From: a virus | Length of the DNA stretch: 38,264 bases | IMG/VR virus record: IMGVR_UViG_3300039307_000398 | Location: 1-38,264 of that record | Reading direction: 5' to 3' (one strand) | Part shown: positions 6,032 through 30,154 of the stretch, in pieces | Layout: each line of letters opens with the position of its first letter | How positions within the stretch are numbered: the stretch's first letter is position 1 | Translations under genes and position numbers: made by a program | The notes under the pieces: model-generated | Databases searched by the model: none | Told to the model about the DNA's origin: nothing | The model's input: the letters and a program-made list of their open reading frames with translations, nothing else

Positions 6032-6060
6032 TGGATAATTATGCGATGCAATCGTATAAT
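6032..6060 (+). promoter_or_regulatory. Promoter for a leaderless mRNA
   Basis: TATAAT at 6055-6060 with TGGATA (6032-6037) 17 nt upstream. The expected start point, 7 nt after the -10, is exactly the A of ATG at 6067, and there is no Shine-Dalgarno before this ATG. This suggests a leaderless transcript for the AAA_14 gene. Confidence 0.55.
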
Positions 6061-6066
6061 GTGCTC

Positions 6067-7227
6067 ATGTGGATTCTCAGATACGTAGAAGCACATTTGC
6101 GCCGCTCAGCGCGTACACGCCCGGTCCTGGTCCTCACCGGCGCGCGCCAGACCGGAAAGACCTCGACGCTGAGGCGGCTTTTTCCGGATTACAGCTTCAT
6201 TTCTCTCGATCTGCCGACCGAAGCCGAACAAGCCGAAAAGGAGCCTGAGGCTTTCCTGCAGCGGCACCCCACGCCCGCAATCATAGACGAAGTGCAGTAC
6301 GCGCCCGCTCTATTCCGTCACCTTAAGGTGGCGGTGGAGGGCAAGCGGAACCGCCACGGACAGTACCTTCTTACGGGATCCCAAAAGTTCACGCTTATGA
6401 AAGGCGTGTCGGAATCGCTCGCCGGGCGCGCGGACGTTGTCGAACTGGAGACATTGTCTTTGGCTGAAATCCTGGCGGCTGCGCCAGGGACGAGACTTGA
6501 AACCGCCATTGTACGCGGCGGATTCCCGGAATTGCATGCCAACCCAGAAATCGATGCGGCAGCCTTTTACAATTCCTATCTGGCAACCTATCTGGAGCGC
6601 GACGTGCGCTCACTCGCGAACGTAGGCAGTCTGCGCGATTTCGAACGCTTTTTGCGCGCCTGTGCCTTGCGCTCAGCCAACTTGCTTAACAAAGCCGACT
6701 TGGCGCGTGACCTTGGCATTGCTCCCTCCACCGCCAACCAGTGGCTGTCGATGCTGGAGGCGTCCGGACAGGTAGTGTTGCTGGAGCCGTGGTTCTCGAA
6801 CCGCACCAAATCGCTTGTGAAGAGCCCCAAACTCTACCTGGCGGACACTGGCCTTCTCTGTGCTTTGCTGAACATCCGCTCCGAAAGAGCCCTGGCCGAT
6901 TCGCCATGGGCCGGCGCGGTATGGGAAACGTTTGTCTTTGCCCAGTTACGGCATCGCGAACGCCGCGCCGGGCGTGCCGGCAGCCTGTTCTTCTGGCGCG
7001 ATCGTACGCGTGAGGTCGACTTTGTTGTTGACGCCGCCGGCCATCTGGAACTGTTTGAAGCAAAATGGACCGAACTGCCCGCACAATCCGACACCGTCAA
7101 CCTTTCCTTCGTGCGTGATATCGTGGGCAAGTCGCGTGTGTCAACGAGTGCCATAATCTGCCGTGCGCCGAACAGTTATCCTATATCCAACGGCTTCCGG
7201 GCAGTGCCCGTTGCGGAGCTCACATAG
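6067..7227 (+). CDS. AAA_14 / DUF4143 ATPase
   Basis: 386 aa. Walker A is GARQTGKTS (25-33) and Walker B is AIIDEVQYAP (about 79-88), followed by a sensor LLTGSQKF. The middle has SLAGRADVVELETLSLAEI and a winged-helix segment. The C-terminal DUF4143 domain has SLVKSPKLYLADTGLLCALL and a nuclease-like stretch EVDFVVDAAGHLELFEAKW. This family is abundant in bacteria; its function is poorly defined, and members are common in genomic islands. The D...E-x-K arrangement at the C-terminus (VDFVVD, FEAKW) resembles a PD-(D/E)XK fold. ATG 6067 is preferred over 6046 because of the -10 position. It is a single plus-strand gene in the cargo block, not obviously linked to phage growth. Confidence 0.9.
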   Translation: MWILRYVEAHLRRSARTRPVLVLTGARQTGKTSTLRRLFPDYSFISLDLPTEAEQAEKEPEAFLQRHPTPAIIDEVQYAPALFRHLKVAVEGKRNRHGQYLLTGSQKFTLMKGVSESLAGRADVVELETLSLAEILAAAPGTRLETAIVRGGFPELHANPEIDAAAFYNSYLATYLERDVRSLANVGSLRDFERFLRACALRSANLLNKADLARDLGIAPSTANQWLSMLEASGQVVLLEPWFSNRTKSLVKSPKLYLADTGLLCALLNIRSERALADSPWAGAVWETFVFAQLRHRERRAGRAGSLFFWRDRTREVDFVVDAAGHLELFEAKWTELPAQSDTVNLSFVRDIVGKSRVSTSAIICRAPNSYPISNGFRAVPVAELT

Positions 7228-7546: not shown

Positions 7547-8974
7547 TTAATTCCTTTTTTGGGGCTCTTCCGGGATCAGTAACGCAAAAAATGTCTCAGC
7601 AAGCAACTTTTCATATTGCCACATGAATTGCTCGACCTTCTCTTCAAGTGAGAGCCCCTCCTCGTTGAAAAGGCCGTACCAGTTGACTGCGTATTCAACG
7701 TGCATGGCTCCGTCCCGATCTACGAACCCTTTCGACGTTTCGCGATCCGGAAGGTGCGAGTCCTCGCTCAGAATCCGTGGTTCCTGCGCGCGCTCATAGG
7801 TACTACTTCGAACGACTGCCTTGTCCTGGAGCGAGAGACAAACGGAATATCCGAGCCACCAGTTACGATCCTTCCTGGAATGTTTTTCCCAGAAGAGCAT
7901 AAGCGCTGGCCGGATCTGCTCATGCATGTCCTCCATGAGAGTGACATAGAGATCTGATTGCCCGAGACGATCGAGAAGCTCCCGACGCTCCTTATACTGC
8001 TGAAGTCCACTTGCGAGGTCAGCGTTATTGATGATGTCAGAAACGTCGACCCCCATTTTTCCGTAGGAGTTTGTGTGATACTTGACATCGTGGCATAACC
8101 CGAGTATTTCGTTAGGGTTCGTTTCCTCCAGAATGCGCCTCAAAGGCTCGATTTCCCCATCAATCTCCATCAGGGCTTTCTGAACGCTCTTCTTGAGCGC
8201 GAATACCGAAGCCTTGATGGCTTCGTGGTCAGTGTTCAGATATGGGACCGTGAAGGCTGGATCAATCTCCTCGACGCTGATTTGTCGGTATCCAACATCG
8301 ACCATGTATCGAGCGAAGTCTCGGTAGCTCATCAACTCGACATCCAACTCGTCAGCAGCCAGTCTGTTCAGCACGGTCCCCCGGACAGCGGGATCGGGGA
8401 CTAGAACTTTGAGCAACTTGGCGATGTTGTTAAGGAGTGTGTTTCGCTGCCTAACAAGTGAAGCTGTCTCGTTTCCGATTGCTTTCCAGTATTCCGGGAA
8501 GTTTCTGTCCAGAAGATCAACGAGGCGGCTGACATCGATCGGTTCGCGTATGGCTTTGTCGAGTCTTTCGGCTTTCAGCGTGGCGTACACGCTTTCCAAG
8601 GCTGTGGGAAGGAAGTCACCACTTGCCACGACAATCACTTGATCGATATGCACCTCGCGCAGTTCATAGATGTGCTTATATGGTTCGTTGATTGCCTGCT
8701 TGATCTGATTAAGCACCGTGAAATAGCCGCTCGAACCGGATGCCGAACCCGTGATGTTGCCTTTCTTAACTACGACCGCAAGATACCTCGTCCTGCCGAA
8801 CTTCTCATCGAGCTCCTTGCAGACGATGTCTTTCCCTTTCTCCCCTGCGTGGTGATGGAGAATAGGGTCGTGAAACCCCAGCTTTGTCAGGAGAGGGATG
8901 AGGACTTCGCGGCGGAGAGCGTCTTCACTAAGGTCAAGCAGATGCTCGCGCTTCTCTCTGGCGGTCATGAGCAT
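7547..8974 (-). CDS. Mrr-like restriction endonuclease-domain protein
   Basis: 475 aa. The N-terminal 150 residues look like an Mrr-type restriction endonuclease domain: ALRREVLIPLLTKLGF, HHHAGEKGKDIVCKEL (candidate metal Asp), FGRTRYLAVVVKKGNITG and LNQIKQAINEPYKHIY, then a VIVVASGDF strand. In relatives I recall, the last catalytic motif is Q/E-x-K (for example QVKKG); here the first position is Val (V-V-K), so catalysis may be altered. The remaining 320 residues are mostly helical and unrecognised. Start 8974 or the Met two codons later; neither Shine-Dalgarno is strong. A palindrome (9008-9031) just upstream may regulate it. It follows the SMC-like ATPase gene on the same strand after 300 bp, so they may form one defence module. 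Confidence 0.65.
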   Translation of the reverse strand: MLMTAREKREHLLDLSEDALRREVLIPLLTKLGFHDPILHHHAGEKGKDIVCKELDEKFGRTRYLAVVVKKGNITGSASGSSGYFTVLNQIKQAINEPYKHIYELREVHIDQVIVVASGDFLPTALESVYATLKAERLDKAIREPIDVSRLVDLLDRNFPEYWKAIGNETASLVRQRNTLLNNIAKLLKVLVPDPAVRGTVLNRLAADELDVELMSYRDFARYMVDVGYRQISVEEIDPAFTVPYLNTDHEAIKASVFALKKSVQKALMEIDGEIEPLRRILEETNPNEILGLCHDVKYHTNSYGKMGVDVSDIINNADLASGLQQYKERRELLDRLGQSDLYVTLMEDMHEQIRPALMLFWEKHSRKDRNWWLGYSVCLSLQDKAVVRSSTYERAQEPRILSEDSHLPDRETSKGFVDRDGAMHVEYAVNWYGLFNEEGLSLEEKVEQFMWQYEKLLAETFFALLIPEEPQKRN

Positions 8975-9274: not shown

Positions 9275-11719
9275 TCAGAATCCGAGGACCGGCTTGTATT
9301 TGGTGAGGATTTCGCTCATCGCGATGTAGTGCGAATTTAGCTGGGCGCTGTTTGCCACGCTACGCGGCATCCTCTCGTCCGGGTGCAGGTGCTTGCTCGT
9401 AAAGTTGCACGTGTCCTCAAGCTTCGCCTCGTCGTTGATATCGAAGCTCTTGCAGGACTTCAGCAGCGACCTGATCTCGCCCCAGCTCTTGCCCTCGTAT
9501 TTCCTTGAGATGGGGTTGCCCGTATCGGCCTTGTACAGCTCCTTGACGAATTGCTCCACAAACATCCGCAGGTTCAGTGTTGCGGTCTTCCGGTATTCCT
9601 CGTTCGTCGCGTCCTTGTGTGTCCTGACCATCTCGAGCAGACGACCGAGGCCTGGCCCCTTCCACTCGATTGCCGGCCCAGAACGCGAGTACTGGCTCAT
9701 CTTATAGAGGGCAGCCCCGCGCCTCCGATAGAGCGCCTCGACATCGCCTGCAAGCAGCTGCATGTGCGTGAGTAGGATGATGTGGAAGCCGTCGTCAAGA
9801 AGCTTCTCGATCACCTGTTTCTTGAACGCCTCAGTGTGTTCGTCATCCATTGACTGCACTGGGTCATCAATCAGCAGCGTATTGAACGGTGTCCCCTTCC
9901 TCGTTGCGCATGCGAGGTAGATGGCCAGCCCCACACAGTTGAGCTGGCTCATGCTTAAATTCGGTGCCGCGAACATTGTCTTCGCGTACGTCCTTGCGCG
10001 CAGTTCCAGGTTATCCGTGCCAGGCACCATGCCATCATAGGCGACATCCGAGATCGGATTGAGCATCGCATACCAATTCTTGATTTCCTTGTCACGTGTT
10101 GCAAGAACCTGCTTCTGCTTTCTTTCGGTGAAGGTACGAATGTCGCCGACAAGATCTGTGAAGCTCCGCTCCACATCGCGGCACACCTGCGCGATCCGGA
10201 CATCCTTCCACTGCTCAAGTGCCGCGATGGTGCGCTCGACCTTCTTGACGTCAGCGGATGATGCGAGACCCGCCTTTATCGCGGGGTCAAGAACGCTGTA
10301 GTTTGCCGCGTATCCGTTGATGAATGCGGGCAGTACGCTGATTTCCGCCTTGTATCGTCCGACCACCTGCGCCAAGTCGTCCGAGCTCTTGGGCAATTCT
10401 CCCGATGACAGCACTCCCTCGATCGCCGTCTGCAAGTTTTTCAGGACCTCGATTGATTCGCCGCATATTACCAGCTGGTCCCCGAGCGCCTTGTTCGATT
10501 CAAGGAACGCCTCAGCAGCTCCGGCCGCAATGTCGCGAATCTTCCGCACCTCGGCATCGTCCGGCTGGTTCGGCACAACTTTCTTCTGCTCGGCGACCTG
10601 CGCCACAAGATCGGTCGTCAGGCCGCGTACTTCTGCAAGTGCCTTTTGGATGGCTGCGAGGCCTTCAGGAGTCTCTGCAAGCGCCTCTCTGAGCGCCGCG
10701 ATTCGCTGCGGAGTCAGGCTGTCAGCCGCACAGAACGGGCAGTGTTCCGGATGTACACTGTCAAGAAGGCGAAGCCCGAGGTGGTAGAACTGTCTGCGTT
10801 GCGGCTCGTGCTCGCGCTGAGAGCCTTGCTGCTCCGCCGCTGCGGCGGCAAGATGTTCGCGGATTTTCGAAACGCGCGCATCGAGGCGGGAAAGCAGCTT
10901 CACCACAGGCGCTTCAGCGGGCGAGCTGATCACCGCTGCGGAAAGCCGGCCCCAGTCAAGTTGCGCCCGCTCCTTCGAGGATTTGACGGTTTTGAGCGCC
11001 TGCAGCAGGTCGGCATAGCCTGGCGAGACGAGCCCCTGCGCAACCTGCCCAAGGTGCTGCTTGGCTGCCGCCAGCCTTCCTGATTCAATGAGAGTGACAA
11101 CAGGAACGAGCACAGGCTCCTGGCGCATGTCTGCTACAAGGAGTGTGCGCCGGCTCTGCGCCTGGACGGCACGCTGAGGCAGCCGCTTGGAGAACTCGGT
11201 CTTCGCTGCCTCCACGGCAGTACGCAACGCAATCAGCGGCTCTAGCCCCATCATAGCTGAGAGCACTTCATACCGCGCCTTGGGCTTCATGAAGATGAAG
11301 TCCTGCAGCGTGTGCTGGAGAATCAACGGCCTATCGTGGAGGTGGTCAATGCCGAACTCTTTCAAGTCTTGAACTACCGATCCGTCAACCTTGAGCACCG
11401 AGGTTTCGTCCGTCTTGAGCTCGCGCAGGATCTTGCGCGCCTTCCCGGCTCGATCGTCGAGCTCCGCCTCGACGTAAGGGGGCGCGGAGCCGATGTAGTG
11501 CGCGTTCTTGTAGCAACCGCTGTATTCGCGCTTGCTCAGGTCGTCACCTTTGGTCCTCTTGAGCGTCCGTCCGTACAGCAACCACTCCACTGCCTCCCCG
11601 ATCGAGGTTTTGCCGCTCCCGTTAGGACCCTCGAAGATGACCATTGTGTCGGAAAGGTCGAGGGTCTGCGCGTCGTTGAAGCCGCGGAAGCCGCAAATAC
11701 TAAGACTTTTCAATCGCAT
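9275..11719 (-). CDS. Rad50/SMC-like ABC ATPase
   Basis: 814 aa. Walker A GPNGSGKTS (31-39), long alpha-helical arms, a zinc-hook-like CPFC (327-330), a signature-like segment NLSMSQLNCVGLAIYLA, Walker B LLIDDPVQSMDD (about 615-626) and an H-loop LLTH (about 648-651). This is the full set of an SMC/RecN/Rad50-type ATPase that senses or processes DNA. About 160 residues follow the H-loop as an extra helical domain (LRMFVEQFVKELYK ... FTSKHLHP), as in several anti-phage ATPases; its activity is unknown. The ATG at 11719 overlaps the 54-aa ORF by 20 nt. A defence role (Lamassu, ABC-3C or RloC-type logic) is inferred from architecture and context only. Confidence 0.85.
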   Translation of the reverse strand: MRLKSLSICGFRGFNDAQTLDLSDTMVIFEGPNGSGKTSIGEAVEWLLYGRTLKRTKGDDLSKREYSGCYKNAHYIGSAPPYVEAELDDRAGKARKILRELKTDETSVLKVDGSVVQDLKEFGIDHLHDRPLILQHTLQDFIFMKPKARYEVLSAMMGLEPLIALRTAVEAAKTEFSKRLPQRAVQAQSRRTLLVADMRQEPVLVPVVTLIESGRLAAAKQHLGQVAQGLVSPGYADLLQALKTVKSSKERAQLDWGRLSAAVISSPAEAPVVKLLSRLDARVSKIREHLAAAAAEQQGSQREHEPQRRQFYHLGLRLLDSVHPEHCPFCAADSLTPQRIAALREALAETPEGLAAIQKALAEVRGLTTDLVAQVAEQKKVVPNQPDDAEVRKIRDIAAGAAEAFLESNKALGDQLVICGESIEVLKNLQTAIEGVLSSGELPKSSDDLAQVVGRYKAEISVLPAFINGYAANYSVLDPAIKAGLASSADVKKVERTIAALEQWKDVRIAQVCRDVERSFTDLVGDIRTFTERKQKQVLATRDKEIKNWYAMLNPISDVAYDGMVPGTDNLELRARTYAKTMFAAPNLSMSQLNCVGLAIYLACATRKGTPFNTLLIDDPVQSMDDEHTEAFKKQVIEKLLDDGFHIILLTHMQLLAGDVEALYRRRGAALYKMSQYSRSGPAIEWKGPGLGRLLEMVRTHKDATNEEYRKTATLNLRMFVEQFVKELYKADTGNPISRKYEGKSWGEIRSLLKSCKSFDINDEAKLEDTCNFTSKHLHPDERMPRSVANSAQLNSHYIAMSEILTKYKPVLGF

Positions 11720-12271: not shown

Positions 12272-13180
12272 TTATCTGCGCCGACGCGGTAGAGTCCGAC
12301 GGCGCAAATCTGCCAAAGGAGCTTCTCCCTGAGCCGTCCGCATTCGATTTATGGCTTCTGCAGTAGCCTGATAGTGTTCCCTGGCGGAATCTGGTGCAAC
12401 TGCCCACATGTCCTGCAGCGCGTGCCAGGCGGCGCGTTCCTTTGTGGTTGCCAAATCCCAGTAATCGAGCTCGTACCGTACACCGGCTTTGTTAGCGAGC
12501 TCTGAGTTCGAGCACTCAAGCGTTCTAATAGGACAGATGCCGATTGGCGGAGAGGCGGGATTGTGGGTGCCGTCAGCAACTAGCGACTCAACTGAGGGAT
12601 GAACGAGAATCCGCATGCCCTTGATGCCACATTTTTCTGCCTGGTAGGCCCGCACTACGGCGGCACCTAAGAACTGCGACGCGTGGACGTCGCTGTCAGC
12701 CGAGACATCAGAACGAAACCTGAGCGCGGCGAATGATCCAAAGGCGATACCCATGCGCACTGGAACGTTCTGAGAAAGCAAGGACTGGGCTAGGTCGACG
12801 GCAAAGCTTGTTGCTTCAAAAAGATACGTGGTTGCGAAGAATACCGAATCGGAGAAAGTGACGGCCGTCAATGGGTGCCTACTATTTGCACTCGCAATTG
12901 CCCACTCGATGGAAAGGTGAAAGCTCGAAAAAGCCTTGGTCAAAGGGTTCTTGGATATGCGTACAATGTCGTCAATCTTTAGCGGGAGCCCCCGACCGCG
13001 GGCATGCAGCATCCGAAGGTCAATCGGGTTTGCCTCCGTCAACGCCGCAAAACCAAGCATGTCGGCAAATACAACGACGCGGTTTGAGCTCAGGGGGCTA
13101 GTCTTTGGCTGATTGCGCTGGGGTATCGTTGTCTGCTGACACCGTGACGACACGTTTCGTAACGGGTCTGGCGATTCCAT
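12272..13180 (-). CDS. Class III-type nucleotide cyclase domain protein (Pycsar PycC-like)
   Basis: 302 aa. The cyclase homology domain begins RVVVFADMLGFAALTEA (metal Asp about 40) and continues with VTFSDSVFFAT (second metal Asp about 111) and PVRMGIAFGSFAALRF. This is the beta-alpha-beta core of class III cyclases, and the FSDS form is shared, as I recall, with Pycsar pyrimidine cyclases. The spacing between the two Asp is longer than in housekeeping cyclases. No transmembrane or sensor domain is attached. A Pycsar cyclase normally sits beside an effector (TM or TIR protein); none is visible within 1 kb, so it may be orphan or serve the adjacent SMC module. ATG 13180 is chosen, with CGGAG 10 nt upstream. 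Confidence 0.65.
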   Translation of the reverse strand: MESPDPLRNVSSRCQQTTIPQRNQPKTSPLSSNRVVVFADMLGFAALTEANPIDLRMLHARGRGLPLKIDDIVRISKNPLTKAFSSFHLSIEWAIASANSRHPLTAVTFSDSVFFATTYLFEATSFAVDLAQSLLSQNVPVRMGIAFGSFAALRFRSDVSADSDVHASQFLGAAVVRAYQAEKCGIKGMRILVHPSVESLVADGTHNPASPPIGICPIRTLECSNSELANKAGVRYELDYWDLATTKERAAWHALQDMWAVAPDSAREHYQATAEAINRMRTAQGEAPLADLRRRTLPRRRR

Positions 13181-13386
13181 GATGATCAAACTCCGACAAT
13201 ACGACCGAGTGCAAACATTTGATGGTTAAGAATTCATACGACTCGAAATTCGAACGATCGGATATCGCGAGAGAATACCAAAGATTGGATTACCGCGAAA
13301 CCACTAGTCTTCTCATGAAGTAAATACGCGCTATTCGCGTGAAATCCCCGACATGCCCTCGAAGTTGCGCTCTGCGAGGTGAATTG

Positions 13387-13421: not shown

Positions 13422-13745
13422 CTAAGGACTGATCTTCACCTTGACCTTTCCGGGTGGGCTCAGGGTCGAGACCGTAACCGGCACCTGCGATCCATCCAGG
13501 GCCGCGCCTACCACGTTAGACACGCCGCTTACCGGAGCGTTCACGGTGGCGAATCTCCCCTGGAAGATGGCTTGATTCAGGCCGAAGATGATGACCCGAA
13601 TCTTTCCGTTGACCGGCGCCTGCGCGATCTGTTTCTGAACGCTGTCAACCAACGTGACGGCACCTGTAGTGTCCAGATCGAATTGCAGGCTTGCCACCGG
13701 CTTGTCGACATACAGGAATACCATCATAAGAAACACCGCCTTCAC
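13422..13745 (-). CDS. Cohesin-like domain protein
   Basis: 107 aa beta-strand-rich protein. It carries the core of a cohesin/carbohydrate-binding-type fold: VASLQFDLDTTGAVTLVDSV, then GKIRVIIFGLNQAIFQG, and VSNVVGAALDGSQVPVTVS near the end. These are the conserved strands I recall from secreted bacterial cohesin domains. The first strand is shortened and there is no clear signal peptide. The GTG at 13745 overlaps the preceding stop (GTGA), so it is coupled to the FN3 gene. Its neighbour two genes upstream carries a dockerin, the natural partner of cohesin. It is the last gene of the late operon. Cohesin assignment is from motifs; a structural model would decide it. Confidence 0.55.
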   Translation of the reverse strand: MKAVFLMMVFLYVDKPVASLQFDLDTTGAVTLVDSVQKQIAQAPVNGKIRVIIFGLNQAIFQGRFATVNAPVSGVSNVVGAALDGSQVPVTVSTLSPPGKVKVKISP

Positions 13746-14014
13746 TGGGCCACCGATACATTGACTACGATGGAAATGGACAAGCCACCCACCTTGGAGC
13801 ACGGCGCCGGCGTTTTCACCGGATCGGACTGCGGACCCTCTCCCCACACATTCACGGCCGACACCGCGAAGGCATGAGCGTCCGGCGAGATTTCTAGCTC
13901 GAATTTGGGCTCCTGCGTGTTTCCCACCTGCGCCCCGTCCATGTAGACATTGTATCCCGTGACCTGCTCCTCCGGTGGGTTCACCGGCCAGTTGAGTTGC
14001 GCTTTTGTAGCCAT
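13742..14014 (-). CDS. Fibronectin type III domain protein
   Basis: 90 aa, essentially a single FN3-like domain: LNWPVNPPEEQVTGYNVYMDG, FELEISPDAHAFAVSAVNVWGEGPQSDPV, then a short hydrophobic tail. FN3 domains are common on phage tail and surface proteins, where they bind glycans or other proteins. AAAGGAG lies 4 nt before ATG 14014; a GTG one codon earlier is possible. No signal peptide. It sits between the dockerin gene and the cohesin-like gene and is coupled to the latter. Confidence 0.65.
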   Translation of the reverse strand: MATKAQLNWPVNPPEEQVTGYNVYMDGAQVGNTQEPKFELEISPDAHAFAVSAVNVWGEGPQSDPVKTPAPCSKVGGLSISIVVNVSVAQ

Positions 14015-14035
14015 CACACTCCTTTGTTGTTATTG

Positions 14036-14536
14036 TTACTTACACCCCGTGACCCCGAGGATCACGGAAACCAGGGCCTGCACGTCGAGCACGTTTACCG
14101 CTCCATCACCATTGATGTCGCCACTTACCCCTGTGGGCAGTGACTTCATGCCTAGGATTGCGCTAATGAGTGCCTGCAGGTCCATTATGTTCACAGCGCC
14201 GTCAAGGTTCAGATCGCACCTCGACGGAGCCATGACAGTCGTAGAAACCTCATTCGAGAAGCCGCTCTCCAGGCCGGCGGTGTTATAGGCGGTCACCGCA
14301 AAGTAGTAAGTGCCTGGCGCCAGGCCGGTCGCGATATACGTGGTCTGTTTTCCGAGAACAATCGGCGCACCGTAGACTCCTGATTCTCTGCCGTAGTAAA
14401 CCTTGTAGCCGGCCAGATCTGATTCGCTATTTGGATCCCAGACCAGAGTCACATCGGCCGCCAATAACGGCGAGGTTGTCAGCAACGCCAGTAGGACCAA
14501 TGATGCCGTCCTGCGCACGACTCCTTCAGTTGGCAT
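14036..14536 (-). CDS. Secreted FN3-dockerin protein
   Basis: 166 aa. A signal peptide is evident: RR then TASLVLLALLTTSPLLA, cleavage expected near residue 26-27. Residues 28-105 form an FN3 domain (VTLVWDPNSESDLAGYKVYYG ... TYYFAVTAYNTAGLESGFSNE). Residues 107-166 are a type I dockerin with two intact calcium loops: D108-N110-D112-G113-D119 and D140-N142-D144-G145-D151, each followed by a QAL(I/V)S helix; C107 and C165 could clasp the ends. Dockerins bind cohesins tightly and need calcium, so this protein should fold outside the cytoplasm. It starts 11 nt inside the metallophosphoesterase gene. Highly unusual cargo for a phage late operon. Confidence 0.85.
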   Translation of the reverse strand: MPTEGVVRRTASLVLLALLTTSPLLAADVTLVWDPNSESDLAGYKVYYGRESGVYGAPIVLGKQTTYIATGLAPGTYYFAVTAYNTAGLESGFSNEVSTTVMAPSRCDLNLDGAVNIMDLQALISAILGMKSLPTGVSGDINGDGAVNVLDVQALVSVILGVTGCK

Positions 14537-15320
14537 AGAAAGTCCCGTTGAAGAACGCCTTCAATGTGGCTTGGCCGCCTTTGACGATCTCGACAATCGG
14601 GTGTTGTTCGACCGAAAAGCAGTCGCTTTTCTTATCCTTGTAGACAATCGAGAACCCAAGCTGCCAGTTCGGGTGGTCGACGTAGGCGGGATTCCGGTCG
14701 CAGAGGCAGAAATTCTCGTAGGCCACTACGTCCCGGTCCCACAACCGCTTGAAACTTGAGCCGCCCCGGTGCGTGTGGTTCTGGATCAAGCTGATGCCCT
14801 TACTGTCCAGCAGGTTCTTTGCCGTGTACCCGCTGTGCTTTGACACGGCGTCAAAGTGTCCGATCAACAGCTTGCCCCATTGCCAGCTCGTCTCTTTGTT
14901 GCCGGAGTAAACGCACTCGATCCTGTTCTCCTCGAGCTCCAGCTGTTCTTGCAGCGTCATTCCCTTCAGCCCGTGCAGCTCGCGCGCGTTGTTGGCGATA
15001 AACACCGCCCACCTGTGCTCGTGGTTCCCGAACACATAAACGATGCGCGCCCTTTGAAACCGCTTGCGCAGGCGCACCAGGAAATCCCGTGTGAGTTTCA
15101 ACTCGGAGACGAGTTTGCCCTTTTCCCGGAACGCCGGGTTTTTGTCAAACTTGGATGCTTCCCAGCAATCGCTAGCATCACCATTAATCACGATCAGGTT
15201 TGGGGCCAGTTCATCTGCGATCCCCAGCGCGACCTCAATGGCCCGGTCGTTCTGCCAAGGGAAGTGAAGATCTCCAAGAATGAAGGCGGTCTCGTAATCG
15301 GCAGACGTATGGCGTCTAAT
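14526..15320 (-). CDS. Calcineurin-like metallophosphoesterase, probable ATT start
   Basis: The fold is a two-metal phosphoesterase: GDLH (D17, H19), INGDASD (D48), GNHEHR (N99-H102), LLIGHFD and IQNHTHRG. The first motif lies upstream of the first conventional start (GTG at 15191), so that start would remove an essential metal ligand. The frame stays open upstream but has no ATG, GTG or TTG; the best candidate is ATT at 15318-15320, preceded by AAAGGGGG at a 6-nt spacing. This gives 264 aa with all motifs. A start lost through sequencing error is the alternative. Role in the phage is unknown; nucleic acid or nucleotide phosphate cleavage is possible. The end overlaps the dockerin gene. Confidence 0.7.
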   Translation of the reverse strand: MRRHTSADYETAFILGDLHFPWQNDRAIEVALGIADELAPNLIVINGDASDCWEASKFDKNPAFREKGKLVSELKLTRDFLVRLRKRFQRARIVYVFGNHEHRWAVFIANNARELHGLKGMTLQEQLELEENRIECVYSGNKETSWQWGKLLIGHFDAVSKHSGYTAKNLLDSKGISLIQNHTHRGGSSFKRLWDRDVVAYENFCLCDRNPAYVDHPNWQLGFSIVYKDKKSDCFSVEQHPIVEIVKGGQATLKAFFNGTFYAN

Positions 15321-15351
15321 GAGGCACCCCCTTTGACGTGTTGGAAGGCTT

Positions 15352-15380
15352 GGCGAGGGCAGTGGGGAAGTGCCCTCGCC
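15352..15380 (-). terminator. Intercistronic hairpin, 10-bp perfect stem
   Basis: GGCGAGGGCA / TGCCCTCGCC with a 9-nt loop, in the gap between the membrane protein gene and the metallophosphoesterase. No T-run follows, so it may be an RNA-stability or attenuation hairpin instead of a strict terminator. Confidence 0.5.
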
Positions 15381-15409
15381 GTTTCTAATGGAGGACCACG
15401 CTGCCGGCC

Positions 15410-15856
15410 TTAACGTTTGATTGGGAACTGGTACGAAAACGCTAGTCCCTGGCCCTTCAAGACGGACGCTGGTGTGGCAGGCTCGCCATGATTGAACGTG
15501 TTGGCGTAAGCCCGACCGGCGAAATACGCCGTTGCAATCGCGAGCACGATGTTGATCGGTTTGGCCGTGTTCGGGAAGTAATGGCGGATCGTAAAGGCAA
15601 CGAAAATCGATCCGCCGGCAATGCCAAGTCGCTCGGCAGGCGTGATCGTGTAGTCCTTGCCTGCTACCGTGAAGTGCCAGTCGGTCTTCGCATCGGCCAC
15701 GTTACTGAGTAAGAATGCTGCCGGGGCGATGTTGTTCGGATCGCTGATGACATCCCACACTCCGCCGGTTTGCCCGGAAGGCTGAGTCTGGCTCTGCGCC
15801 ATCAACGGAAGCGTGAACAGCATGCAAACGACAAGCATCAAAACGAATCTCTTCAT
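15410..15856 (-). CDS. Exported small membrane/envelope protein
   Basis: 148 aa. The N-terminus is a clear signal peptide (MKRFVLMLVVCMLFTLPLMA, cleavage near 20). The middle has two hydrophobic stretches (LGIAGGSIFVAFTIRHYF and NIVLAIATAYFAGRAYA), so the mature protein is probably membrane-associated. No known family. Its place beside holin-like and endolysin genes suggests a lysis-related or envelope-modifying role, but that is only context. Confidence 0.6.
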   Translation of the reverse strand: MKRFVLMLVVCMLFTLPLMAQSQTQPSGQTGGVWDVISDPNNIAPAAFLLSNVADAKTDWHFTVAGKDYTITPAERLGIAGGSIFVAFTIRHYFPNTAKPINIVLAIATAYFAGRAYANTFNHGEPATPASVLKGQGLAFSYQFPIKR

Positions 15857-16197: not shown

Positions 16198-16932
16198 TTA
16201 GAACGCCTTGGCGATCGTAGCAAGCAGCTCGGCGAGAAGCAGCAGCTTCTGGTACTTCGAGCTGGTTTTTGCGATCTTCTCGACTGATTCGGCAATCGCG
16301 GGCGCCTGGCGGGACGCTACCTCAAGGTTTCCGGCGATCGCGTCCACGTGGGCGGTCGTCGCGGCAATGCTCGCCAGGGCAGCTTTCCACTCGGGATCTA
16401 CGAGCAGCTCATGGATCTCGTCGACCGACATCGTGCTCTTGGCCGCGATCTCCTGAATCGAGCCCGTAATCGCCTGGATTGACACTCCCAGTGCCCGGGC
16501 AGTTTCCGCCAGGTTCGGCAGTAGCTGCTCATTGAGGCTTCGGTCCGTGTTCATCACCAGTCCGGTTATGGCTTGGGCACCCTTGTTGAAACTGCCCACG
16601 GCGCCGTTGAGGCTATCCAAGGTATCCCGTAGCCGCGGCATCAGGACCTTGTTGATATCTTTCGCGGTTCCGTTGAGCACGGCTGCCGTTTGCCAGCCGG
16701 CTTCGAGGGCTTTCTGGTTCTTCGGGCTCTCCAGGATCACCTTCTGCTTTTCCGCGTAATCAGCAACCAGCTTCGCAGTGCGCTCAACCTGGGTCACGGC
16801 CCCGTCGACCTTCGTGGCCGCACTGTCAGCCTTCAAGAGAAGGCAATGCGCATCCCTGGTTAAGATCAAGGCGCACACCGCCAAGGTGAGCGCCAGAATG
16901 ACAATAGCAATGCTTCTGACGGTGTTAAGCAT
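16198..16932 (-). CDS. Membrane-anchored helical protein in the lysis region
   Basis: 244 aa: one N-terminal transmembrane anchor (IAIVILALTLAVCALIL), then a long helical region with heptad-like repeats (VTQVERTAKLVADYAEKQ, AGNLEVASRQAPAIAESVEK) and a hydrophobic C-terminus (LLLLAELLATIAKAF). Resembles envelope-spanning proteins with repeated helical bundles (MCE/tail-fibre-like), but no family is clear. ATG 16932 is used; it overlaps the endolysin stop by 8 nt. It may act as a spanin-like or regulatory lysis protein; this is inference. Confidence 0.55.
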   Translation of the reverse strand: MLNTVRSIAIVILALTLAVCALILTRDAHCLLLKADSAATKVDGAVTQVERTAKLVADYAEKQKVILESPKNQKALEAGWQTAAVLNGTAKDINKVLMPRLRDTLDSLNGAVGSFNKGAQAITGLVMNTDRSLNEQLLPNLAETARALGVSIQAITGSIQEIAAKSTMSVDEIHELLVDPEWKAALASIAATTAHVDAIAGNLEVASRQAPAIAESVEKIAKTSSKYQKLLLLAELLATIAKAF

Positions 16933-17488
16933 TGGCCAGCTCCCGGTAGATGCGAGCGTACCTGAGCACTTCACGGCTGTAGTCTCTGCCGGCGGTGTAG
17001 TGGTCAATGAAGTCAGGGCCGCATGCGAGGGGATCCACTTTCATCTGCACCAGGGCCTTGAGCACGTTGCCCTCGCCACCGTTGTAAGCCGCGACGGCTG
17101 CGCGCTCCAGGTCCGGAATCTCCAGACCCTTCTTCGGCGCCAGCCTTTGCAACGTCTGGCGCTTCAATGCGAGCTGTTCTGCCGCGAACAAGGCATTCTC
17201 ACGAGGGTCTTTCCACTTCTCGCCGGCGCAGAACTCAGGGAACGATCGATCGTCAATCTGAAACAACCCGTGCCCGTGGCCTCCGTCTCCGACATCGTCA
17301 GCCGGATTGTCCGGTGTGCCGAAGATGTCCTTAAGTAACGGGGACTTTCCACCCTGGGTTTCCCGCATGAGGATGCCGGCCATGATCTCCTCACGATGCT
17401 GGTACAGCTCGGCTGCCTCAATGAGGATCGCGCGGTAGGTCGCCAGGATGTGTTTGAGTAGTGCAACTTCCGTTTCTTTGTCTATCAT
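16925..17488 (-). CDS. Endolysin, lytic transglycosylase / goose-lysozyme type
   Basis: 187 aa. Glycosidase features: MRETQGG with the catalytic Glu (E43), GHGHGLFQIDDRSF (68-82), and ERAAVAAYNGGEGNVLKAL (about 128-146), the SLT/GEWL triad of motifs. No signal peptide, so it should need a holin for access to peptidoglycan. The start at 17488 overlaps the upstream gene's stop (ATGA). It is the lysis enzyme of the phage, cutting glycan strands of the host cell wall. Confidence 0.85.
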   Translation of the reverse strand: MIDKETEVALLKHILATYRAILIEAAELYQHREEIMAGILMRETQGGKSPLLKDIFGTPDNPADDVGDGGHGHGLFQIDDRSFPEFCAGEKWKDPRENALFAAEQLALKRQTLQRLAPKKGLEIPDLERAAVAAYNGGEGNVLKALVQMKVDPLACGPDFIDHYTAGRDYSREVLRYARIYRELANA

Positions 17489-22946: not shown

Positions 22947-25900
22947 CTATTGGATGTAGGCGAACCCGCCGTTGCGCCAGACGGTCGTAAAGGCTTGCGC
23001 AACCTTTTGGTTGAAGTCGTCAGCCCCGTAAACATCGCCGTTGATCGTGACGTTTACAGTCGGCATCTTCGGCTGGGAGCCGGTGTCGCCATTGTCCCCG
23101 GTGTCACCCGCGCCGCCCGTTCCGACAACCGGCACTCCGGTATTGCCCGAAGCGTCCGCGCCGGTATTGGCGGTCTTCAGGTTTTGGAGCATGACGTCGA
23201 TCTCCGCGACTACCGCTGTGGCCGCCGCCGAAATCGCATCGGAAATCTTATTGCCCACGGTGTCAAACGCGCCCATCATCGAATCCGTCAACGTTTGGAT
23301 CTGCGATGTGGTTTTGTCCTGTGCTGTAGCAAGATCGCCCAGGAGTTCCTTCACTTTGTCCTGGTAGGCTTGATCCATCGCGGCCTTCGTGTCCGCGAGG
23401 AGCCCACTGGAGATCGTGTTAAATCCCTGGTCGTAACGGCTCACGGCGGTCTGCCCTGCCGTGCCGCCGTACTGAATCAGAGCTTGCCGCATCGCATCGG
23501 TGAGCACGCCAGAACTCTGGAAGTCAGACACCGCCTGATCCCAGCCGTTCATGTTCGTGCCGATTCCGGCAATCCCCTTGAACTTATCAGGGTCGAGCCC
23601 GGCGTTAGTGAATGCATCAACCACGTCCTGGTCCCAGGTGCCGTTGAGCAGCTTCTGGACCGGGTCCATAGTCGGAGCTAGCTTCTCAAGCTCGCCCTGC
23701 AACTCGGTGATGAAATTGAGTGACGAGTGAAGCCCAGGCAGAGCGGCTGCCTCATTGAGCTTTTCCATGTCGCCGCCCCACTTCTCGTACAGAGTAATGA
23801 GGTCGGGAAGGATCTCGCCGGTGTCCTTGAAGTGCTGGACCAGATCCGTCCAGGTCTTGTCCTCCTTGGTCAGGTCTGCGAAGTCTTTGAACTTCTCGAG
23901 GTTGCCGCCCAGCTCCTGAATCTTCGCCGCAAGCTCGTCGGTTACCGTGCCTGTCTTCACGAAGTCGTCATAGAGCGAATTCGTGGTTGGAATCAGGCTC
24001 TTGACCGCCTGCTGTAAATTCTGCAGGTCCGTCACCGCCTTGCTGGGCGCCATGAGAACGTCGGCCCAGTTCGGAAGGTTCTGCTGCAGTGCCGCCGAGT
24101 TCTTGAACGCCTCGGCGAATTGCTTGTTCAGTTCGGTCCAGTCGCCGGTTGCCTGCCCCAACTCGAAGGCACTACGAAAATTGAACGTGCCCCACGAGGT
24201 CTTGACCTGCTCCAACGACTGCAGGAACTCATTCACCTTCCCCTGCGCTTGCGCGAGAGGATACAAGGTGTTGACGAGAAATGTCGGCGACGACGAGATG
24301 TCTTTGCGGATGTCGTATGCCGAGGAATCCGTCAAGCCGAGGCTTTCGTAAAACGACTTGAACTGGTCGGTGCTTATATTGATGCCGCCGAAGTCCCGCG
24401 CCACTTCCATCGAGCCGGCTTGTTCGGAAGTCTTGCCCTGAATCGCACTGACGAGACTCTGGACACCCTTCGTGAACGCCCCGACCGCAGCGCCGATTGC
24501 GGCCCCGATGGGTCCTGCGATCGCCAGGCCGGCCAGCGCGCCGCCACCGATTCCTTCGACCCAGCCCGCGGCGCCGTCCCGGTTGATCGAGTCCATGTAG
24601 GCCATGATGCCGCCGGTCGTCATGAGCCCGCCAGCGATCCCACCAACGCCTTTCCCGTTGATGCCTCCTGCCGGCAATCCGAATAGCCCGGTACTGCTTG
24701 GACCGCTGGACTCCTCGCCGCTGTCAGACTTACCTGCGCCGGTGATCCAGTCGGATAGACTCTTGCCGAGCTTCTTCATTTCGTCCTTGAGCGGACTCAG
24801 AAGCTCGTCCAGGAACGTGCGCAGCAGGCCCTTGACCGAATCCTTCGCCACTTGCGATATGGTCTGCCAGAAGCCTTTCCATTCAACGATGGCGTCAGAG
24901 ATCCCCTTGATCCAGTCGTTGAAAATGGTCGAGATTTCCTGGCTGACTTCGTCCTTGGTTTCCTTGGCGGCGCCAACGAATACGTCGTTGAACGCCTTCC
25001 AGTCCTTGTCCATCTCCGCTTTGGACGGCAGTTGAAAAGCGTCCTTGAGCGGGTCCCTCGATTTCATCTTGTCGATGTCTTCGACGGTCTGATTGAGCAG
25101 TTCCTGGACGGCAGACACCGTGTCCGCCGGCTCTTCCTGCTTGATATGTTTGAGAGATTCGGTCCAGGACTTCATGGCATCGTCCGCCCGCTTCCAGGCC
25201 AGGGCGGAGTTATACAACTCTTCATCCAGCGCACTGAGAGGCTGCCCGAATTCCTTCTGCGCTTCGGTCGCCTTGACGATGTCCTTCCAATGCGCTTGCG
25301 CGTACTGATCGACAGTTGCGCCCACAGCGGCGAGTTTCTTGTACTCGTCCGTGATGGCGCTCATCGGTTGGATCTCTTTAAGCCACTGCTCCTGTAGTTT
25401 CTTCTCCTCCTCAGTGAGTCGGTGTACGGAGTCAGCGGCAGCCGCATGGGCCTGAACCTGCCGGTTCGCAAGTTTCTGTACCTGGTCATACGCATCGAGC
25501 ATCGGTTTGATGCGGTCGATGTACTTCTGTGGGTCTTCCCAGCCCGACCTGTGTAGGATGTCAATCCCGTACTGTGCCTGGTCCGCGCCAATGTTCAGGC
25601 TGCGCGCGCGTTTCTCAAGTGCCTCCGCCTCTTTGCGAAGCGCCTCTTGAGACATCTGCTGCATCTCTTTGACGCGGCCCTGAAACAAGCCCAGCTTGTC
25701 CCACAACTTGGTCAGTGCCTCGTCGGCCCCGGTGAGATCGGCAATCCAGCGTCCTATGTTCCAGCCCAAAATCGCAGCACCGGCAACCGATGCCGCCTTC
25801 CCGAAGCCTCCCATGTTGTTCCCGGCAGTGGCGATGACCTTGCCGAAGTTGTCCCACTCTCCGATCATGCTCGTGATCTTAAATCCAGCCCAAACTGTAA

Positions 25901-27098
25901 GGAAGGCGATCGCGGCGCTCTTCAGGGTGTCAAAGTTGCCGGCGGTAAACACTATGACCTTGCCAAGCGAGTCAACCGCGGAGGTGAGGCCGTCGACAAT
26001 GCCGGTGTTGTGAACAATCGAGCGCTCCAGATTGCTCATCATCTTGTCCCACTTTTCGCCTAGGGTCTCCTCCATGCGCCCGTGGGCATCGAGCATGTGG
26101 TTGCCGGATTCGGTCATTTGATCGAAGGCCAGAGCCGCTTTCTGCGCTCCCGCTCCAGCCAGGGCGAGAAAGGCGTTCACCTGCCGACCCTGCAGCCCAA
26201 GCTCGTTCGCCAGGGCCGTATCCCCCTGGATCACGGTCCCGAGCTTGGAAAGGACGTTGATGATGCCGCCGTTTTTGAACGTGTCGGCATTCAGGTCCAC
26301 ACCCATTTCCCGGAGTTGCTGGTTGAGCTTCGAACCTTCCGTGCTCATCTTCGTAAACAGGGTCGTGAGCAGAGTCGCACCCTGGGTGACCGGAATCTGG
26401 TACTGCTTCAGGGTCGAAAGAACGGCCCCGAGGTCGGCCAGTGGAATGTTCAGGCCTGCAGCCACGCTGGCGAGTCTGCCAAGACCCTTTGCCAGTTCGT
26501 TCGCGTCCATGCCGCCGCCCTGGCGGAGGATGCGGAACAACGTCTCGGCCGTTTGCGATACCTCTGCGGTGCTCTTGCCGTAAGCGTTTTGCGAGACCTT
26601 TAGCAAATCAACGGCGCTTGCCGTATCAACGAACGCGGTTTTGGAGAGAAGCGCGGCCTGCTTCACATAGTCGATAGCATCAGCCGAGCTGACACCGGAT
26701 TGAATAGTCGCGTAGAGGGTCTTTGCCAGTTGCGTATTGGAGCCAAACTCGCCCCCAAGAGAAAGCAATTGTTCCCGGAGCGCTCCGTAGACTTCAGGGC
26801 TGCCCTCAAACAGAGTTGTGACTTTGGCGAACTCGGTCTGGAAGTCAATCAGTTTCCCGGTCCAGTGCTCAATCTGCTGCGCGAGCTGGAGGCCGCCGAA
26901 CGTGACAGCGAGCCCGGCCACGATACCCTTGACGCTCTCAAGAGCGGAGCCGAACCCCTGGCTGGACGATGCAGCTCTCTTCTGAGAGTTTTCAGCCTGG
27001 TCGCCTACGTCGCTCAGGGCGAGCCGCATCTTTTCGAGTGCGGCCACGCCCTGGGAGGTGTCAGCCCGCAGCGTGAACTGGATTGTCGAACCCGGCAT
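22947..27098 (-). CDS. Tape measure protein
   Basis: 1383 aa, the largest gene of the late operon, as expected for the protein that sets siphovirus tail length. The N-terminal third has the TP901-type tape measure domain (QTEFAKVTTLFEGSPEVYGALREQ, SLGGEFGSNTQLAKTLYATIQSG, LLKVSQNAYGKS, LGRLASVAAGLNIPLADLGA). The rest is helical, with a hydrophobic glycine-rich region near 850-920 (GGALAGLAIAGPIGAAIGAA) typical of segments inserted in the host membrane on DNA ejection. The tail-assembly chaperones precede it, as in lambda. At roughly 0.15 nm per residue the tail would be near 200 nm; that conversion is general knowledge, not measured. Confidence 0.95.
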   Translation of the reverse strand: MPGSTIQFTLRADTSQGVAALEKMRLALSDVGDQAENSQKRAASSSQGFGSALESVKGIVAGLAVTFGGLQLAQQIEHWTGKLIDFQTEFAKVTTLFEGSPEVYGALREQLLSLGGEFGSNTQLAKTLYATIQSGVSSADAIDYVKQAALLSKTAFVDTASAVDLLKVSQNAYGKSTAEVSQTAETLFRILRQGGGMDANELAKGLGRLASVAAGLNIPLADLGAVLSTLKQYQIPVTQGATLLTTLFTKMSTEGSKLNQQLREMGVDLNADTFKNGGIINVLSKLGTVIQGDTALANELGLQGRQVNAFLALAGAGAQKAALAFDQMTESGNHMLDAHGRMEETLGEKWDKMMSNLERSIVHNTGIVDGLTSAVDSLGKVIVFTAGNFDTLKSAAIAFLTVWAGFKITSMIGEWDNFGKVIATAGNNMGGFGKAASVAGAAILGWNIGRWIADLTGADEALTKLWDKLGLFQGRVKEMQQMSQEALRKEAEALEKRARSLNIGADQAQYGIDILHRSGWEDPQKYIDRIKPMLDAYDQVQKLANRQVQAHAAAADSVHRLTEEEKKLQEQWLKEIQPMSAITDEYKKLAAVGATVDQYAQAHWKDIVKATEAQKEFGQPLSALDEELYNSALAWKRADDAMKSWTESLKHIKQEEPADTVSAVQELLNQTVEDIDKMKSRDPLKDAFQLPSKAEMDKDWKAFNDVFVGAAKETKDEVSQEISTIFNDWIKGISDAIVEWKGFWQTISQVAKDSVKGLLRTFLDELLSPLKDEMKKLGKSLSDWITGAGKSDSGEESSGPSSTGLFGLPAGGINGKGVGGIAGGLMTTGGIMAYMDSINRDGAAGWVEGIGGGALAGLAIAGPIGAAIGAAVGAFTKGVQSLVSAIQGKTSEQAGSMEVARDFGGINISTDQFKSFYESLGLTDSSAYDIRKDISSSPTFLVNTLYPLAQAQGKVNEFLQSLEQVKTSWGTFNFRSAFELGQATGDWTELNKQFAEAFKNSAALQQNLPNWADVLMAPSKAVTDLQNLQQAVKSLIPTTNSLYDDFVKTGTVTDELAAKIQELGGNLEKFKDFADLTKEDKTWTDLVQHFKDTGEILPDLITLYEKWGGDMEKLNEAAALPGLHSSLNFITELQGELEKLAPTMDPVQKLLNGTWDQDVVDAFTNAGLDPDKFKGIAGIGTNMNGWDQAVSDFQSSGVLTDAMRQALIQYGGTAGQTAVSRYDQGFNTISSGLLADTKAAMDQAYQDKVKELLGDLATAQDKTTSQIQTLTDSMMGAFDTVGNKISDAISAAATAVVAEIDVMLQNLKTANTGADASGNTGVPVVGTGGAGDTGDNGDTGSQPKMPTVNVTINGDVYGADDFNQKVAQAFTTVWRNGGFAYIQ

Positions 27099-28384: not shown

Positions 28385-28458
28385 TGGTTGGGGGTGCGCG
28401 AATCGAACGCGCCTTTACGGGGCATGAGCCCGCTGGGTAACCACTACAGTAACCCCCT
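28385..28458 (-). tRNA. tRNA-Met (CAT), initiator-like
   Basis: 74 nt with encoded CCA. Acceptor: A1 opposite A72 unpaired, then GGGGGT with ACCCCC. Anticodon arm: GCGGG, loop CTCATGC (anticodon CAT), CCCGT. T arm: GCGCG, TTCGATT, CGCGC. The unpaired 1-72 position and the three stacked G-C pairs at 29-31/39-41 are the hallmarks of bacterial initiator tRNA. The D arm is weak: only positions 12-14 pair with 21-23, and 10-25 and 11-24 are mismatched. It is transcribed with the late genes. Elongator Met or Ile2 (lysidine) identity cannot be excluded. Confidence 0.75.
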
Positions 28459-28519: not shown

Positions 28520-28933
28520 TTAACTCGTCGAACGGGTGATCGGCGTATTGATGCCGATATTGACCGTGCATTCCTCGACCGTGCCGACTGCCCCCGAAAT
28601 CAGCGGAATCTGGCCCATGAATCCCTGGAAAGAAAACTCCGGATTGTCAGTGGCCTTCGCCGCGCGTTTGCGCCGCATCTTGAACGAAACGAGCTGCCCG
28701 CGGTTGTCCCACAGCACCTCATCCACGCTGCCGGCGCCGTAGTTCTTGAACATCTTCGCGCTCGCCGTGGGCTTCTCCAGGCCTGGCACGTAGACATGGC
28801 AGCCGTCGCCGGACGCGGTCGTCTCCACTTCGTCGATCGCGAAATTGAGCTGGATCTCCGAGGTCTGGTCCGACAGGTCCACACTGTTGACCTCGAAGTA
28901 CGGATCTTTGATGACTTCAACCACTGCCGTCAT
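28520..28933 (-). CDS. Second tail tube-like protein (short paralogue)
   Basis: 137 aa. It aligns with the N-terminal part of the 240 aa protein encoded before it: MTAVVEVIKD, SVDLSDQTSEI, HVYVPGLEK and SVDEVLWDNRG match MTAIANIIKD, GVDLSGDENEV, HVTAPGLAK and LVDETLVARLG. So it is a duplicated tail tube fold without the C-terminal extension. ATG 28933 is used; the gene behind is separated by a terminator. It may be a minor tube protein or a tail-tube variant. Confidence 0.6.
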   Translation of the reverse strand: MTAVVEVIKDPYFEVNSVDLSDQTSEIQLNFAIDEVETTASGDGCHVYVPGLEKPTASAKMFKNYGAGSVDEVLWDNRGQLVSFKMRRKRAAKATDNPEFSFQGFMGQIPLISGAVGTVEECTVNIGINTPITRSTS

Positions 28934-28951
28934 TGGTAACCTCCCCAAATG

Positions 28952-28977
28952 AAAAAAGCCCGGATTGCTCCGAGCCT
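28952..28977 (-). terminator. Rho-independent terminator between the tail tube paralogues
   Basis: Minus strand: GGCTCGGA, loop GCAA, TCCGGGC, then TTTTTT (one G-U pair). It would let the first tube gene be made in excess over the second. Confidence 0.75.
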
Positions 28978-29004
28978 CGTCAATTCCCTGCCCTCTTCCC
29001 CAAG

Positions 29005-29727
29005 CTACACGATGCCGACGACCACAAAGATGGTCGCCGTCCCGACAACCGTTACTTTGACGCGCCACCACGAGTCGGTAATCGGCCCCGCTGCCGACTT
29101 GAACTCGGAACCGGTGTCGGTATGTTGCGCGAAGGTGATCTTGTCAGTCGGAGAGGCCATCCCCTCTGCGTCATCGCACTGAACCACCACGTCAACCGAG
29201 CCACTGGCCACGTCAAAGACGTGCAACGCAGCAAACAACTTCTTCCCTTCCGGCACAGCCCCAACATGGAAGGCAGTTCCCAGATGCTCTCCGGCTGCGA
29301 GCATGGTCTTTGCGATCAGGATGGTCCCGCGAATGACTTCGCCGGCATCCTGGCTCATTGAAAAATCGAAGCTCGGCAGCTCGCCCACTTTCATACTCGG
29401 GGCGTAACTCGAGCCCCATGCTTTCGTAAAATAGGCGATCTCGCCACTCACGCCGCCTTTCTGCGTGACAGAAACGGGGACACCCGCTGTCCCGAGGCGC
29501 GCCACGAGGGTTTCGTCGACCAGCCCTTCGCCGAAGGTGACAAAGCCTTTCTGGTCGAGAGTGATCTTCGCTAGGCCCGGCGCCGTCACGTGCGAGCTGT
29601 CCGGAAAGGTCGTACATTCCTTCTGGTCGAACTCAATCGCTAGGCTCACTTCGTTCTCGTCGCCGCTCAGGTCGACACCGCCGAGATACACCTTCCGATC
29701 CTTGATAATGTTGGCAATTGCAGTCAC
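29005..29727 (-). CDS. Major tail tube protein
   Basis: 240 aa, beta-rich, in the position of the major tail protein: after the tail terminator gene and before the chaperones. Segments include VDLSGDENEVSLAIEFDQ, LVARLGTAGVPVSVTQ and a C-terminal domain (HVFDVASGSVDVVVQCDD ... WWRVKVTVVGTATIFVVV) absent from its paralogue, perhaps an exposed Ig-like domain. The terminator behind it fits a highly expressed gene. Confidence 0.65.
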   Translation of the reverse strand: MTAIANIIKDRKVYLGGVDLSGDENEVSLAIEFDQKECTTFPDSSHVTAPGLAKITLDQKGFVTFGEGLVDETLVARLGTAGVPVSVTQKGGVSGEIAYFTKAWGSSYAPSMKVGELPSFDFSMSQDAGEVIRGTILIAKTMLAAGEHLGTAFHVGAVPEGKKLFAALHVFDVASGSVDVVVQCDDAEGMASPTDKITFAQHTDTGSEFKSAAGPITDSWWRVKVTVVGTATIFVVVGIV

Positions 29728-29761
29728 GCCGTCCTCCTATAGGCCACAATGGAAGCGCCCC

Positions 29762-30154
29762 TCATAACTGGGTGCGTTCTTTTAAAACTTCAAAGTTGCA
29801 GGCAAAGACCGTGCGGCCCTGCTCGTCCCGCCGCAACACGAACGGCTCATCGAGCGCGGCAATCCACACGTATCGCGTGTCATTCAGTGCCTGGTCCGCC
29901 AGGCCGTCTAGCAGTTGCTTGATCCCCTCGATCTTCAGACGGCCGTCTTCGTAGTCCGAATCCCGGACCTCGATCTGGAATCGGGGCTGCTCGGCCGCTA
30001 CTCCCCCTGACGTTCTGATCGGCGCCTGACCGCGATATTCAAAGACCGCAACCGCTCCATCAGGCGTGTCTGGAAGGTCTGATTTGAAGAGGTCTTCTCC
30101 CTCAGTGCCGTACTCGTTTTCGGCCAGATACCCGCAGATGTCGTCAAGGAGCAT
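29762..30154 (-). CDS. Tail terminator-like protein (minor capsid Gp12 family)
   Basis: 130 aa with the pattern of small tail terminator proteins: N-terminal helix MLLDDICGYLAENEYGTEG, a strand AVAVFEYRGQAPIRT, RFQIEVRDSDYEDGRLKIEGI, then a C-terminal beta region (YVWIAALDEPFVLRRDEQGR). These proteins cap the tail tube and join it to the head. Order after the gp10-like gene agrees. Confidence 0.65.
   Translation of the reverse strand: MLLDDICGYLAENEYGTEGEDLFKSDLPDTPDGAVAVFEYRGQAPIRTSGGVAAEQPRFQIEVRDSDYEDGRLKIEGIKQLLDGLADQALNDTRYVWIAALDEPFVLRRDEQGRTVFACNFEVLKERTQL

Follow-up and report, generated by a model that had tools for sequence, protein, structure and literature searches.

What are a dockerin and a cohesin-like protein doing side by side at the end of a phage's late operon? 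Cohesin–dockerin pairs are among the tightest protein couplings known, and they have been studied in cellulosomes and in other cell-surface scaffolds. The locus that raises this question lies in the virus record IMGVR_UViG_3300039307_000398, which was analysed over its complete length of 38,264 bases (hereafter the window); the record is entire, and the virus itself is possibly a fragment. A preliminary description of this DNA had suggested that three neighboring genes might furnish the phage with a matching adhesive pair, and it knew of no earlier report of such a pair in a phage. We likewise found no phage cohesin–dockerin pair in the open-licence literature of PubMed Central, a collection outside which most subscription journals fall, so that novelty can be claimed only within these bounds.

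A three-gene module at the end of the late operon

The virus is a temperate siphophage, a bacterial virus of soil type, and the integrase gene at 1-1299 marks it as temperate. Its late genes form a run on the minus strand that includes the head genes (32-35 kb), the major tail protein and, in the tail part of the operon, the tape measure protein (22947-27098; PHROG 1272, E 3.1e-24), and that continues to position 13422. Further along the same strand come an SLT-type endolysin (16925-17488; Pfam SLT 6.5e-4, PHROG lysis 0.014), several small protein genes and a phage-type metallophosphoesterase (14526-15191; PHROG 221, E 7.3e-18). The reading frame of the latter and its GDLH motif extend upstream of the GTG at 15191 (14526-15411); its start codon is either unusual or, more probably, located further upstream. 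Directly after the metallophosphoesterase, at the operon's end, stand the three genes considered here, referred to below as the trio. They encode a protein with a signal peptide, a fibronectin type III (FN3) domain and a dockerin (SP-FN3-dockerin; 14036-14536), an FN3 protein (13742-14014) and a 107-aa protein (13422-13745). The collinearity of the trio with lysis and tail genes, as originally reported, is borne out by the metallophosphoesterase, endolysin, tail proteins and tape measure that lie upstream of it. A tRNA-Met gene (CAT) is present at 28385-28458, between tail genes of the late operon.

The SP-FN3-dockerin protein

The first gene of the trio (minus strand) encodes 166 aa when read from its ATG; its homologues begin at a GTG that corresponds to codon 7 in the alignment, and the true start may be at 14518. 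The product opens with a hydrophobic segment that resembles a signal peptide and ends in ...LLAA. An FN3 domain follows (residues 26-99, 14240-14461, minus strand; Pfam fn3 E 1.3e-7) and then a dockerin (14069-14215, minus strand), which was matched by PF00404 in a six-frame search (E 1.5e-9, 33.9 bits) and, in the called protein, by the Dockerin_1 model (E 1.1e-8; 35.5 bits, where the cut-off is 22.9). Type I dockerins (PF00404) are recognized by two tandem 12-residue calcium loops of the form D-x-N-x-D-G-x5-D, each followed by a helix. Both loops, DLNLDGAVNIMD and DINGDGAVNVLD, are complete in the window and are kept in all four phages that carry the trio (see below), and all the calcium ligands are retained. 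The architecture first proposed for this protein, a signal peptide with FN3 and a complete two-loop type I dockerin, is confirmed by the hydrophobic N-terminal segment, the Pfam matches and the intact loops.

The trio in other phages

Relatives of the trio are few. Pattern scans of viral and genome collections with a single protein or with a three-sequence alignment returned none, and a profile of the 107-aa protein found no virus in the IMG/VR collection beyond those described here and no match among annotated phages. Two prophages surfaced through a whole-genome search of the Acidobacteriota: one genome of this phylum (G210, 7.5 Mb) encodes two proteins related to the 107-aa product, one 85% and the other 79% identical to it. 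Both prophages carry the complete trio in unchanged order at 76-89% identity, and both align collinearly with the window (70-86% DNA identity). In one of them an additional 2.5 kb or so (contig C21, about 28600-31122) separates the metallophosphoesterase gene from the dockerin gene. Among these three copies the dN/dS ratio is 0.14-0.23 for the 107-aa gene, 0.02-0.05 for the FN3 gene and 0.20-0.26 for the dockerin gene, and over its first 28 codons the 107-aa gene varies almost exclusively by silent changes, the start codon being among the exceptions. Hence the three open reading frames are real genes.

A more distant copy came from a search of IMG/VR with the SP-FN3-dockerin family alignment, which then had five members. 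This virus (IMGVR_UViG_3300027896_000024, 82.9 kb; hereafter L184) has a complete trio, whose identity to that of the window is 68% for the SP-FN3-dockerin protein, 41% for the FN3 protein and 57-59% for the 107-aa protein. Here the trio follows directly on a glucosaminidase endolysin and on small genes reminiscent of a holin and a pair of spanins; further upstream, two tail-fibre-like genes have relatives in the window (36%). This endolysin and the SLT-type enzyme of the window belong to different families, yet the trio is intact, which indicates that the three genes stay together while their neighbors change. The trio is thus conserved beside lysis genes in two or more kinds of phage, and the preliminary description's call to look for it next to tail or lysis genes elsewhere has been answered by the two prophages and L184. 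No trio was present at the dockerin/FN3 loci opened from a set of 70, and one candidate, L002, was set aside because it has the metallophosphoesterase alone in common with the window. In a related prophage of another genome (G362), whose major capsid protein is 52-55% identical, no trio was detected within the 40 kb examined, which suggests that the trio is dispensable for such phages.

A dockerin–cohesin operon in the host lineage

Apart from its prophages, the G210 genome has on contig C7 an SP-FN3-dockerin gene whose product shares 59-64% identity with that of the phage; the alignment with the window's protein (59% over 166 aligned columns, E 3e-67) places the two in one family. Two cohesin proteins with FN3-like repeats, one of 1893 aa and one of 917 aa, are encoded within the 14 kb after this gene. 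The arrangement is tighter still in other Acidobacteriota. In two genomes of the same order (G289 and G044) the stop codon of the SP-FN3-dockerin gene overlaps the start of a cohesin gene, and in G163 a gap of about 100 nt separates the two genes. The SP-FN3-dockerin/cohesin pair is a recurrent host operon, of which we found no description. The chromosomal loci in which a cohesin gene directly follows the SP-FN3-dockerin gene are L146:8860-12068, L179:2243-4242 and L178:1294-3824, with overlapping stop and start codons in two of them. In other Acidobacteriota genomes (loci L180, L181, L182 and L183), genes for small cohesin-like lipoproteins have as neighbors FN3 proteins and/or genes for an NtrC-type regulator or a sensor kinase.

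Pfam cohesins occur in 226 of the 396 Acidobacteriota genomes sampled, and strong full-length members of the SP-FN3-dockerin family were found in these 396 in the two prophages, G210 C7 and G289 only, all of which were themselves part of the query alignment. The idea that G210 was the sole genome with cohesins among 15 of its order was dropped, as Pfam misses the cohesins of G289 and G044.

The phage and host dockerins are alike where partner choice is decided. In dockerins, positions 10/11 and 17/18 contact the cohesin and set specificity. The window's dockerin has IM/VL at positions 10/11 and IS/VS at 17/18; that of G210 C7 has AL/VL and IN/GN, and the other host dockerins VL and IN/VN. The type of residue at these positions is common to phage and host, and this likeness, together with that of the calcium loops, points to the same class of partner for the phage dockerin. 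Unlike contact residues of the Clostridium type, those of the phage dockerin are hydrophobic and N/S.

To judge from these homologies, the trio has the appearance of a host dockerin–cohesin operon copied into a phage in shortened form, the simplest reading being that a phage took up the host module and then reduced it. The FN3-dockerin tree is poorly resolved, and the donor, the number of captures and the order of events are not separable in it.

The FN3 protein and the shortened cohesin homologue

Between the two putative partners lies the FN3 gene (13742-14014, minus strand), preceded by an AAAGGAG ribosome-binding site. The preliminary description had placed an FN3 protein here, and a weak Pfam fn3 match (E 0.066) to the 90-aa product agrees with this. 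The protein is conserved in all four phages and the PHROG matches of the FN3 part are to tail proteins; its last ~18 residues (PCSKVGGLSISIVVNVSVAQ) resemble an extra strand and include one conserved Cys. Its stop codon overlaps the start of the 107-aa gene (13422-13745, minus strand) in every copy, as GTGA in the window, ATGA in both prophages and TAATG in L184. A programmed frameshift between the two was considered and rejected; since the sequence shows no evident slippery site and the form of the overlap varies from phage to phage, coupling by reinitiation is the likelier mechanism.

The 107-aa protein had been described as a GTG-coupled protein with cohesin-type strands. The overlap of its GTG with the FN3 TGA is confirmed, and comparison with host proteins identifies it as a shortened homologue of cohesin; the Pfam cohesin model (PF00963), however, matches neither the window's protein nor its L184 counterpart. 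The cohesin domains of G289 and G044 likewise escape this model, which is evidently insensitive here. When a profile of the three closest phage sequences was run against the whole G210 genome, its best non-self match (E 0.025) was a host cohesin domain that itself passes Pfam at 1.1e-8; the next match (E 0.0375) contains in-frame stop codons. For the reverse comparison, cohesins of the host order were chosen by their position beside dockerin genes and not by similarity to the phage. Aligned by hhalign with three such cohesins, the phage protein gave a probability of 90.5% (E 1.3e-6), and with four, of which two pass Pfam at about 1e-8, 96.4% (E 1.3e-9); controls remained at or below 3.8% for column-shuffled profiles, 0.2% for the reversed one and 0.1% for the FN3 protein. 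In hmmsearch the four-cohesin HMM scored the phage proteins at 21-23 bits; of 20,000 shuffles, the best reached 11.7. The L184 copy, which was outside the training set, matched the host-cohesin profile at E 6.6e-8, and it is 37% identical to one of the host cohesins that pass Pfam. An HMM built from a diverse set of acidobacterial cohesins could not tell the phage protein from shuffles, so that recognition of the kinship depends on close cohesins of the host order; a PDB profile search with the phage protein gave matches at chance level.

A full cohesin (PF00963) is a nine-strand jelly roll of about 130-150 residues, and the host cohesins measure about 133 aa against 107 for this mini-cohesin. 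The phage proteins align from the second cohesin strand onward, with ~13 N-terminal and ~18 internal residues absent; the core in common reads VASLQFDL...QKQIAQAPVNGKIRVIIFGLNQ against VSTLQFDL...QKSASANVVSGGVRVLVFGLNA. Lacking the first strand and these internal residues, the mini-cohesin may fail to bind a dockerin. AlphaFold run in single-sequence mode, that is, on the protein with no alignment, returned a pLDDT of 37 for it and 30 for the other protein modelled. No clear signal peptide was recognized in either the FN3 protein or the mini-cohesin; the hydrophobic start of the latter aligns with a cohesin strand, yet it could be a signal. The three products might therefore come together only once the cell lyses.

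What the trio may do

Its position among the lysis genes suggests that the trio would be made late, alongside the lysis proteins. The FN3-dockerin protein would then be exported by Sec and would bind cohesins with calcium, its likeliest partners being the large secreted cohesin-FN3 proteins of the host and/or the phage's own mini-cohesin. The most plausible role for it would be to occupy or cap extracellular cohesin–dockerin sites around the time of lysis, with the result that progeny would not be trapped on the host surface or debris, or that the matrix would be loosened. We see an even chance that the trio is such a cut-down host module, serving as a late-made adaptor or decoy on the host's extracellular cohesin–dockerin system; its homology to chromosomal dockerin–cohesin genes of the host lineage favors a scaffold of the host as the target. 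More tentatively, the captured operon, with its cohesin cut to a minimal domain to which the FN3 protein perhaps adds its strand-like tail as the missing part, could still supply a working pair that jams or re-wires the host's cohesin–dockerin network at lysis.

The partners might instead be self-contained, the FN3-dockerin protein binding a mini-cohesin borne on the virion with the FN3 protein, so that progeny stick to surfaces or to each other. FN3- and Ig-like decoration domains are common on phage virions, and the joint encoding of dockerin and mini-cohesin in all four phages, the tail-protein matches of the FN3 part and the coupled translation of two proteins devoid of a clear signal peptide would all suit such an arrangement. 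We nonetheless think it unlikely, as the dockerin protein is of host type and has a signal peptide, host cohesins would make equally good partners, no virion-binding domain was recognized and the shortened cohesin may not bind. Another proposal is that only the FN3-dockerin protein matters, the 107-aa protein being a relic of a cohesin or a beta protein that has some other partner. The missing first strand, reduced length, lack of a Pfam match and low-confidence single-sequence model speak for this proposal; purifying selection on the gene, the identity kept in a distant virus and the strict linkage to the dockerin gene make it rather improbable.

Expression from the lysogen is a further candidate, in which surface FN3-dockerin would alter adhesion or phage resistance. 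The phage is temperate, with an integrase and two prophage copies in G210, and the module resembles host surface genes, but the trio is collinear and overlapping with the late genes rather than forming a separately oriented accessory block, and we regard lysogenic conversion as quite unlikely. It is very improbable that the resemblances arose by chance or are an artefact of annotation among unrelated, beta-rich small phage proteins: FN3-like sequences are indeed common in phages and the early tests with the diverse-cohesin HMM failed to exceed shuffles, but the host-specific profiles surpassed their controls, shuffled as well as reversed, and L184 supplies an independent homologue from a virus.

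Relation to known systems

The decoy or adaptor role preferred here has a functional analogue in the lytic conversion lipoprotein of T5, which reportedly covers the phage receptor and protects the progeny. The analogy is that of an exported, phage-made protein covering a site on the host surface, and the two have no sequence relation.

With the type I dockerin–cohesin couples of cellulosomes the trio has in common a two-loop dockerin with its calcium ligands and a cohesin homologue; no enzymes, carbohydrate-binding modules or multi-cohesin scaffoldin domains were matched in it, and it is no cellulosome. PMC9012536 discusses noncellulosomal cohesins and dockerins, among them archaeal ones whose binding has been verified, and cites Peer et al. 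(2009) on such modules in bacteria and archaea. These occur in organisms that have no cellulosome; the trio differs in being phage-encoded. Much closer are the acidobacterial pairs (G210 C7, G289 C225, G044 C44 and G163 C1). Their dockerin genes have the same SP-FN3-dockerin architecture, the two closest being 60-64% identical to the phage over the FN3-dockerin part, and lie near or adjoining a cohesin gene, with a stop/start overlap in two. The host cohesin proteins, where complete, are of 607-1893 aa and combine a signal peptide and a cohesin with many FN3-like or Ig-like repeats; the phage, in contrast, has a lone mini-cohesin, a separate FN3 gene in between and a location in a late operon. 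Among phages, gene 40 of Vibrio phage VvAW1 has reported homology to dockerin (PMC3558961) and in this resembles the trio, but no cohesin partner was reported for it, and it was discussed as a possible integration region and not beside lysis genes.

If the virus does plug into, or block, the surface scaffold of its acidobacterial host, a phage-carried pair homologous to host genes would mark such scaffolds as targets of phage–host interaction. The trio would also offer a handle on the function of the noncellulosomal cohesins and dockerins that are widespread in soil Acidobacteriota, and the mini-cohesin would add a minimal cohesin to the toolbox of protein engineering.

Other cargo of the window

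Beyond the trio, the segment 7228-13384 is an accessory region in which neither G210 prophage matches the window. It includes an SMC-like ATPase (9275-11719) matched by Lamassu LmuB models (E 8.8e-29), with unknown genes nearby at 7547-8974 and 12272-13189, and could represent defence cargo. At the right end (35293-38264) no portal or terminase was recognized; this end has a 116-nt partial repeat of the start of a head gene (35872-35987) and two plus-strand genes, one QueC-like (36380-37195) and one of the SLOG family (37254-38264), and may be different cargo, a degraded prophage or an assembly join. An AAA_14/DUF4143 ATPase on the opposite strand (6046-7227) matches PADLOC PDC-S01 at E 1.1e-98 and falls within the stretch that the window shares with both G210 prophages.
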